A stretch of DNA of 64,000 nt from Flavobacteriaceae bacterium F08102 (GTDB taxonomy: Bacteria; Bacteroidota; Bacteroidia; Flavobacteriales; Flavobacteriaceae): the NCBI GenBank assembly GCA_023015935.1, contig JALKAY010000002.1, positions 62,001 through 126,000 on the forward strand, in the 5' to 3' direction. Shown here piece after piece: positions 8,562 to 11,070 of the stretch; positions within the stretch are counted from its first letter, which is position 1; each line of letters opens with the position of its first letter. Both the position numbers and the translations under genes were made by a program. The notes beneath the pieces were generated by a model that saw nothing but the letters and a program-made list of their open reading frames with translations, made no database searches and was not told the DNA's origin.

Positions 8562-9341
8562 TCAATTTAACGCTTCGGTTAAAAGTTCGATGAGGTGATT
8601 TGTATCCTCAAAAAGAATGAATTCCCCGTCCTTTAAATAAGAGATTTGGCCAGTTTCTTCTGAAACAACCAGGGCTAAAGCGTCATAGCGTAAAGTGACA
8701 CCAATTGCTGCTCTATGGCGTAAACCAAATCTAGCGGGAATGCTAATGTCTTTTTCAATAGGTAAAATAACCCGTGTTGCCGTGATTACATTGTCTTCAA
8801 TTATGATGGCTCCATCGTGTAATGGACTGTTTTTGTAAAAAATACTGGTAAGTAGTGGTTTGTTAACCTCGGCATTCATTGGGTCTCCCGTTTTTTTAAG
8901 TAAATCTAGGTTGTTGTTTCGTTCAAAAACAATGAGCGCACCTGTTTTGGTTTTGGACATAGATTCACAGGCTTTGACAATGCTCTCTACATCGGTAACA
9001 AATTCCTCTTCGGTCTTAAAAATTTTAAGTTGTTTCAAAAATCCTTTGGAGGCAAAACTAGTAGATCCGACCATGAGGAGAAAGCGCCTAATTTCTTGTT
9101 GGAAAACAATAATTAAGGCTATAAATCCACCCCCTAGAAACTTACCTAAAATATCACTGAGTAATTCCATCTTTAAAGCCTCGGTAAGCTTCCAAATTAA
9201 ATAAACAATGGCAATTCCAATAAAGATGTTTATCGCTGCAGTACCTCGAATTAATTTATAAACGTAATACAGCAATACCGCTACCAATACAATGTCTACA
9301 ATATCTAAGATGCTTAGATCTAAAAAGTCAAAGGTCTTCAA
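8562..9341 (-). CDS. cdaA: Diadenylate cyclase CdaA (c-di-AMP synthase)
   Basis: A membrane-bound enzyme that makes cyclic di-AMP from two ATP, a second messenger controlling potassium and osmolyte balance and cell-wall stress. 259 residues: hydrophobic N-terminus with about three helices (10-30, 34-52, 72-88), then a DAC domain with the two signature motifs, DGA in SPLHDGAIII (about 170) and RHR in GLRHRAAIG (about 205). The length and layout fit CdaA rather than DisA or CdaS. It is convergent with the ABC exporter (1-bp spacer). No c-di-AMP phosphodiesterase gene is visible in the window. Confidence 0.95.
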   Translation of the reverse strand: MKTFDFLDLSILDIVDIVLVAVLLYYVYKLIRGTAAINIFIGIAIVYLIWKLTEALKMELLSDILGKFLGGGFIALIIVFQQEIRRFLLMVGSTSFASKGFLKQLKIFKTEEEFVTDVESIVKACESMSKTKTGALIVFERNNNLDLLKKTGDPMNAEVNKPLLTSIFYKNSPLHDGAIIIEDNVITATRVILPIEKDISIPARFGLRHRAAIGVTLRYDALALVVSEETGQISYLKDGEFILFEDTNHLIELLTEALN

Positions 9342-9601
9342 TGTTTAGGATTTTTGTAAAAATAAGCATAATTAGTGAAACCTCATTTTATCAATTTGGC
9401 TTTTTATTATTGAGCTAAAAACAGGGAGTGTGTATATGTCTTTTGCTTAGGTGCCAGTGTTGGTAATTTTATAGGATTACGGGGTTGCGGGTGTTTGGTA
9501 TTTCGCCATCACAATGAAGTCGCTGGGTGTAGTGTGGTAAATTAAAAGGAGGTAGCTTGTAGCAGTGAGCTTTTGGCGTTGGGGCTTTGGAATAATGTAG
9601 G

Positions 9602-10141
9602 TTAAAATGAGGTAGAATTAATATACGATTCTAATTTTTCGTCATTTTGATTCTTTTTGAAACTTAGTTTTAAGTTGGTGAAATTGATTTTGTAACGTTC
9701 ATGTGTCACCTTATTTCTAAGGTCTGTATAGGCATTCGTTATTGCATTTTGTGCATTGATATATACGTGGTAATTTGCTTCGCGACTTGCTAATAATTTA
9801 ATGACGGCCGTTTTTGGATGGTCTAATAGTGTTGTTGTATTTCTGCCCTCAGGATCTAAATCTGCGCCACTATCAATAAAAGCAGTCGTTATTTTTTTAA
9901 GTTCGTTTAAATCGTTGATGTGAACACCATTTACGCGAATTTCATTTTTATTATTGATGATAACTTCAAGTGTATTTTTTTGAGAAATTTGACGTTTGTC
10001 AATGGGGTCTTTTTCGGGAAAGTGTTTGTGAATCTCATTGTTCGCTATAAGAGGTGTTGTTATCAAAAGGAAAACAAAGAGTAATAAGCCGATACCAGCC
10101 ATCGAATTGGTGTTAATTTTTGGAGAAGTTTTGGCGTACAT
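9602..10141 (-). CDS. Orphan ExbD/TolR-like protein lacking the membrane Asp
   Basis: 179 residues. The N-terminus, SPKINTNSMAGIGLLLFVFLLITTP, has the layout of the Bacteroidota ExbD membrane helix, and the C-terminal part (NEIRVNGVHINDLNEL, then REANYHVYINAQNAITNAYTDL) fits the periplasmic domain. ExbD works with ExbB to use proton flow to power TonB. The key aspartate of the helix (usual form SMADI) is here Gly16, codon GGT instead of GAT. No exbB or tonB is nearby. It is either decayed or reused without proton transport. The flanking 260 bp (9342-9601) shows nothing recognisable. Confidence 0.75.
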   Translation of the reverse strand: MYAKTSPKINTNSMAGIGLLLFVFLLITTPLIANNEIHKHFPEKDPIDKRQISQKNTLEVIINNKNEIRVNGVHINDLNELKKITTAFIDSGADLDPEGRNTTTLLDHPKTAVIKLLASREANYHVYINAQNAITNAYTDLRNKVTHERYKINFTNLKLSFKKNQNDEKLESYINSTSF

Positions 10142-10221: not shown

Positions 10222-11070
10222 TTATTCAGCCTTCGCATTTTTGGTCAATTGAACAATTTGGATTGTTTCAATAGCTTCTTTCACATCGTGAACTCGTAAA
10301 ATTTGACTTCCTTTGAGGAGAGCTATGGTGTGTGCAGCAGTTGTTGCATTGAGCGCTTCAGCTGGGGAGACATTAAGTGGCTTGTAAAGCATTGATTTTC
10401 TCGAAATACCTGTAACAATAGGAAGGTCTAAATCGTTGAATAAGTCTAAATGGTGAAGAAGGGTGTAGTTTTGTTTATTCGTTTTGCCAAAGCCAAAGCC
10501 AACATCTATAAGTACATCATTTACTTTTAATGCATTTAATGTGGCTAATTTTTTAGCAAAGAATAGTTTTAAATCAACGATGATATTTTGGTAGGATGAA
10601 GTGTGTTTTTGCATGGTTTGTGGATTTCCAGGCATGTGCATCATGATGTATGGAACTTGGTGTTGAGCGATGGTATCAAACATAGAAGGGTCTAAGTTTC
10701 CTGCTGATATATCATTGACCATACAGGCCCCAGCATTTAGAGCGGCTTTAGCTACTTCACTTCGGAATGTATCTATAGAAAGTAAAATTTCTGGAAACTC
10801 CTTAGCGAGTAATTCAACGATGGGAAGTACCCTGTTAATTTCTTCTGTAACCGAGATATGACTTGCATTGGGGCGTGAAGAATATCCGCCAACATCGATA
10901 AAAGTAGCGCCTTCATTTAGCATTTTATCAACGCGATTTAAAATGTCGTTATTTGAATGTAGGGTGTTGCCGTCATAAAATGAATCAGGGGTTAAATTTA
11001 AAATACCCATGACTTTTGGTGTGGATAAATCGATTAGTTTTCCTTTGCAATTAATGGTTTTAGGAATCAT
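10222..11070 (-). CDS. folP: Dihydropteroate synthase
   Basis: Joins p-aminobenzoate to the pterin diphosphate in folate synthesis; this is the sulfonamide target. The 282 residues form a TIM barrel with PS00792-like N-terminal motif MGILNLTPDSFYDG, the loop GGYSSRPNA (family norm STRPGA), DISAGN, MHMPGNPQTMQ, DVGFGFGKT and GISRKSML. The Gly-to-Asn in the second loop is a small deviation. It is followed by the ExbD-like gene on the same strand and preceded, 19 bp away, by the LOG-family gene, so these minus-strand genes may share a transcript toward cdaA. Confidence 0.95.
   Translation of the reverse strand: MIPKTINCKGKLIDLSTPKVMGILNLTPDSFYDGNTLHSNNDILNRVDKMLNEGATFIDVGGYSSRPNASHISVTEEINRVLPIVELLAKEFPEILLSIDTFRSEVAKAALNAGACMVNDISAGNLDPSMFDTIAQHQVPYIMMHMPGNPQTMQKHTSSYQNIIVDLKLFFAKKLATLNALKVNDVLIDVGFGFGKTNKQNYTLLHHLDLFNDLDLPIVTGISRKSMLYKPLNVSPAEALNATTAAHTIALLKGSQILRVHDVKEAIETIQIVQLTKNAKAE

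Follow-up and report, generated by a model that had tools for sequence, protein, structure and literature searches.

The window, a 64,000-nucleotide stretch of a Flavobacteriaceae genome, carries the orthologue of a stand-alone ExbD ("ExbD2") that lies between folP and cdaA in related species, and this copy has lost the aspartate of its membrane helix while keeping an open reading frame. ExbD, TolR and MotB are thought to act via such a membrane aspartate. We regard the gene as most likely a fading yet still readable leftover and, on balance, lean towards describing it as a channel-dead, redundant ExbD2 that is under strongly relaxed, though not wholly absent, selection and is heading for loss. 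The coordinates of the features discussed are collected in the table.

The reading frame lies on the minus strand, open from an ATG at 10141 to a stop codon ending at 9602, with no internal stop, frameshift or truncation of the kind that marks a pseudogene. Its product matched the Pfam ExbD family PF02472 with a score of 35.7 bits (E=1e-8), above the family's gathering cut-off of 25.4 bits, placing it in the ExbD/TolR family; the homology proposed from the letters alone thus held in a profile search. In the AlphaFold model the protein is predicted to consist of one N-terminal helix (residues 11-33) and a folded C-terminal domain, that is, the single helix followed by a periplasmic alpha/beta domain that typifies the family. 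When this model was compared with known structures using VIA-align, it reached Z 8.4 to TolR (5by4) and 7.8 to ExbD (8vgd), and the next unrelated chain scored 4.4. Across the Escherichia coli ExbD and TolR periplasmic domains (8p9r, 8vgd and 5by4), likeness to the predicted fold of residues 54-141 ranged from Z 7.7 to 8.4, at 9-12% sequence identity to the window protein.

Table. Features of the window gene, its neighbours and the lipoprotein family (positions are those of the window unless a locus is named)
Feature	Position	Strand	Basis or remark
ExbD2-like gene, Asp-less, 179 aa, frame intact	9602..10141	-	Pfam ExbD match; orthologue of the folP-cdaA stand-alone ExbD
N-terminal transmembrane helix, model residues 11-33	10043..10111	-	AlphaFold
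Codon 16, GGT, Gly where the proton-carrying Asp is expected	10094..10096	-	sequence
Periplasmic domain, predicted ExbD/TolR fold, residues 54-141	9719..9982	-	VIA-align matches to TolR and ExbD
Site of the lost CxxC segment (relatives e.g. CDWCNGK, CTWCNGK)	9824..9865	-	both Cys columns deleted only in the window copy
folP, dihydropteroate synthase, upstream syntenic neighbour	10222..11070	-	
cdaA, diadenylate cyclase, downstream syntenic neighbour	8562..9341	-	
ExbD-domain lipoprotein loci, folP-cdaA gap	L058-L086, L122, L129-L131, L144-L148		
Lipoprotein copy in the window genome, outside the slot	G000:C44:224480-225136 (L143)		

The replacement of the SMAD aspartate by Gly16, first noticed in the sequence-only reading, was confirmed: the motif reads SMAG in the window copy. 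Its conservation in relatives, which that reading had left to be checked, was not found, as the aspartate is there in each of the 21 relatives whose motif is intact and is missing from the window copy alone. Similarly, the fetched loci contain 82 distinct ExbD-type open reading frames whose motif can be read, and 81 of these carry the aspartate (in three, which are of the second operonic ExbD kind, as ALPD); the exception is the window copy. A pattern scan across the family, which detects only near-consensus helices, recovered the Asp-bearing motif from 389 of 397 family genomes, and among the 50 non-Asp pattern loci inspected (about half of such matches) the window copy was the sole ExbD. The presence of the aspartate in relatives therefore indicates a loss in one lineage and no conserved Asp-less type of ExbD. 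With glycine in place of the membrane-helix aspartate (D25 in E. coli), the window protein cannot be a normal proton-carrying ExbD as defined in E. coli, where Asp25 of ExbD is described as important for activity in the work of Braun et al. (1996), as cited in PMC5903867.

The lost aspartate is one of many changes in this copy. Of 42 alignment columns that are invariant in 20 relatives, 16 are changed in the window protein, as against 0-3 in any single relative. Nine of these lie in or adjoin the helix (D16G, A18G, F19L, L22F, I23V, F25L, V27I, T30P and G36E), which reads SMAGIGLLLFVFLLITTP in the window copy versus SMADIAFLLLIFFLVTTT in relatives, and the others include both cysteines of the CxxC motif and the YP of the tail; in all, the copy has lost about 8 amino acids in frame as well as its C-terminal tail. 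The change is spread over both parts of the protein, with 9 of 18 invariant columns altered in the helix and 7 of 24 in the periplasmic part, so that better protection of the latter is not significant (Fisher p=0.21). On a common topology the terminal branch leading to the window gene measured 1.97 substitutions per site in exbD2, compared with 0.175 in cdaA and 0.443 in folP. The resulting branch ratio of 3.18 was the highest among 18 taxa (others 0.16-2.59). Because the exbD2 branch is long relative to those of both neighbours, the fast change belongs to the gene and not to the whole genome. These observations also bear on the thought that a sequencing or assembly error, or contamination, created the glycine: GAT and GGT do differ by one base, but the 16 changed invariant columns, the in-frame indels, the normal syntenic flanks and the quality of the assembly (3.3 Mb, 99.5% complete, 0.02% contamination) all speak against it. 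The many other changes rule out a base error, and we consider an artefact of any of these kinds extremely improbable.

The records closest to the window genome that bear a name belong to Aureibaculum species (Flavobacteriaceae), and the nearest relatives compared here are other species of this genus. A contig search with the window protein as query recovered no relative, and the named loci were reached via CdaA instead. A second, stand-alone ExbD gene lies between folP and cdaA in 14 of the 16 other genomes of the genus, and the order folP-exbD2-cdaA recurs in some, not most, Tenacibaculum and Polaribacter genomes. These stand-alone proteins and the window copy group together in a single clade (support 96/94), separate from operonic ExbD; by both locus and clade the window gene is thus an ExbD2. 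This ExbD2 clade is delineated in the present analysis. The ExbD2 proteins of Aureibaculum, Tenacibaculum and Polaribacter are 32-40% identical to the window copy and, unlike it, have the SMAD aspartate in every intact motif and CxxC in all members. The gene had earlier been called an orphan; it does stand alone, but so does its counterpart in every relative, and the window copy is not special in this respect.

The gene is dispensable, being missing in two congeners and interrupted in a third. It is absent from A. marinum (L049), where the folP-cdaA gap is 226 bp, and from a second genome (L054), where the gap is 92 bp. One of the 14 congeners with the gene, G001 (L037), has a broken copy: its stand-alone exbD is split within the helix by a 175-bp element that has inverted ends CCCGTATTATTCA and dozens of matches across the G001 genome. 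In the window, a long gap of 260 bp (9342-9601) separates the end of the ExbD-like gene from cdaA. A G001-like repeat insertion 3' of the window gene was ruled out, as 9342-9640 is single-copy in the genome.

The genome encodes exactly two proteins of the MotA/TolQ/ExbB family, on contigs C51 and C47, and a genome-wide search for the family placed neither in the window, in agreement with the sequence-only reading, which had seen no exbB or tolQ nearby. Besides the window gene there are three genes of the ExbD type, all Asp-bearing: an exbB-x-exbD-exbD operon on C51 contributes two and a tolQ-tolR pair on C47 the third; the Asp-bearing exbB-exbD pairs that had been proposed as a search target do exist in this genome. 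Operons of the exbB-exbD-exbD type have been described in Riemerella anatipestifer and Flavobacterium psychrophilum (PMC4446302). Operonic Bacteroidota ExbD (PF02472) shares homology, the N-terminal helix and the periplasmic fold with the window protein and branches next to the stand-alone clade. Unlike these proteins, the window copy is not encoded with exbB and has lost the aspartate, CxxC and tail. It thus lacks the adjoining exbB of a proton-coupling ExbD; an ExbB encoded at another locus could still serve as its partner. Since a normal exbB-exbD-exbD operon and a tolQ-tolR pair are present elsewhere, the window copy is redundant.

Another idea is that the Asp-less ExbD2 acts as a dominant-negative or tuning subunit, which would enter ExbB pentamers alongside normal ExbD1 and throttle the motor. 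The loss of the aspartate from a helix that is otherwise kept fits this idea, as does the presence of ExbB in the genome. Assembly with ExbB is doubtful, however, because A18, F19, L22 and F25, which are invariant in relatives and probably contact ExbB, are all changed, and we find such a role unlikely.

How much selection the gene still experiences was assessed by simulation and by a codon model. In neutral walks from an orthologue to the excess divergence of the window copy (an identity factor of about 0.6-0.7), 0-1.3% of runs remained without a stop. The codon model rejected a wholly neutral window branch (2dlnL 16.4), a branch that includes older, constrained time and on which dS is saturated. 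Owing to this saturation, with the branch length at its bound, omega values of the branch are not meaningful; thus the dN/dS comparison suggested beforehand yielded a rejection of full neutrality, which is all we use from it. The helix is still hydrophobic, but drift alone keeps it so in 16-22% of runs, making selection on its hydrophobicity indistinguishable from drift. The intact frame, previously put forward as an argument against decay, therefore does argue against complete neutrality; relaxed selection nevertheless fits at least as well as reuse of the protein, given the lost CxxC and tail, the fast branch and the fact that three congeners lack the gene or have it disrupted.

Such reuse is the main rival and is possible, though we rate it clearly below relaxed selection. 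It holds that the periplasmic domain, working without proton flow, is the reason why the protein persists, that the helix is now a mere anchor, and that the protein may bind TonB-like partners or the cell wall, or serve the neighbouring CdaA. The open frame and non-neutral branch are in keeping with it, as are the 17 of 24 invariant periplasmic residues that are kept and the predicted fold of the domain. Set against this are the other seven residues, the lost CxxC and tail, the fastest branch of all taxa compared and the loss of the gene in congeners. The choice framed at the outset, between a decaying copy and an ExbD fold reused without proton flow, was the right one, and both options are retained.

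A putative precedent for reuse, judged by anatomy, is an ExbD-like domain carried by a channel-less lipoprotein that is found in this slot in other bacteria. A protein of 200-240 aa with a lipobox-like cysteine at its N-terminus is encoded in the folP-cdaA gap (~700 bp) of Lutimonas (L076, L079), some fifteen MAGs and other genera. Pfam ExbD matched 8 of 18 members (best E 3.2e-6; the C-terminal part in the first member), NCBIfam ExbD matched only one of the 18, weakly, and the predicted C-terminal domain reached Z 9.4 to E. coli ExbD. Having no channel helix, this lipoprotein illustrates an ExbD-like domain free of proton flow more cleanly than the window protein does. The family is present in 33 of 119 related genomes; eight genomes of other genera with stand-alone ExbD2 held no convincing copy. 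Most Aureibaculum genomes, the window genome included, carry the gene outside the folP-cdaA slot, and the lipoprotein was accordingly rejected as a simple replacement of ExbD2. Its being a separate gene that the window genome also possesses counts against the precedent. A profile comparison of the lipoprotein with ExbD2 was weak (23.7% probability), although its Pfam and structural similarity to ExbD is clear. A single in-frame stop was seen in the matched stretch of L136/L159 (G011/G127, A. marinum), L147 and G030; this family may itself be undergoing decay in some genomes, unless the stop falls at the very end of the match. A further reading, and in our judgement a long shot, is that the slot houses ExbD-domain envelope proteins that need no proton flow, such as a CdaA partner, with the window protein and the lipoprotein as two independent channel-freed forms.

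Taken together, these results point to relaxed selection on a redundant copy, with a history that may have run as follows. An ExbD2 paralogue would have split from operonic ExbD and then settled between folP and cdaA. In relatives, ExbD2 keeps the aspartate and all channel residues and so presumably assembles with an ExbB pentamer encoded at another locus. In the window species the copy would have become redundant; its channel helix lost the aspartate and neighbouring invariant residues, and its periplasmic part lost CxxC and the C-terminal tail. The product is predicted to be still bitopic, with an ExbD/TolR-like periplasmic domain, but it cannot pass protons via the SMAD site. The loss of the gene, as in three congeners, is probably where the window copy is heading.

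An Asp-less but readable ExbD whose locus is defined and whose orthologues in congeners have the aspartate lets one ask, as an experiment of nature, if the periplasmic domain is useful by itself, and the lipoprotein family makes the question of ExbD domains without channels testable. If the window copy is merely fading, it shows how a motor subunit gets dismantled.
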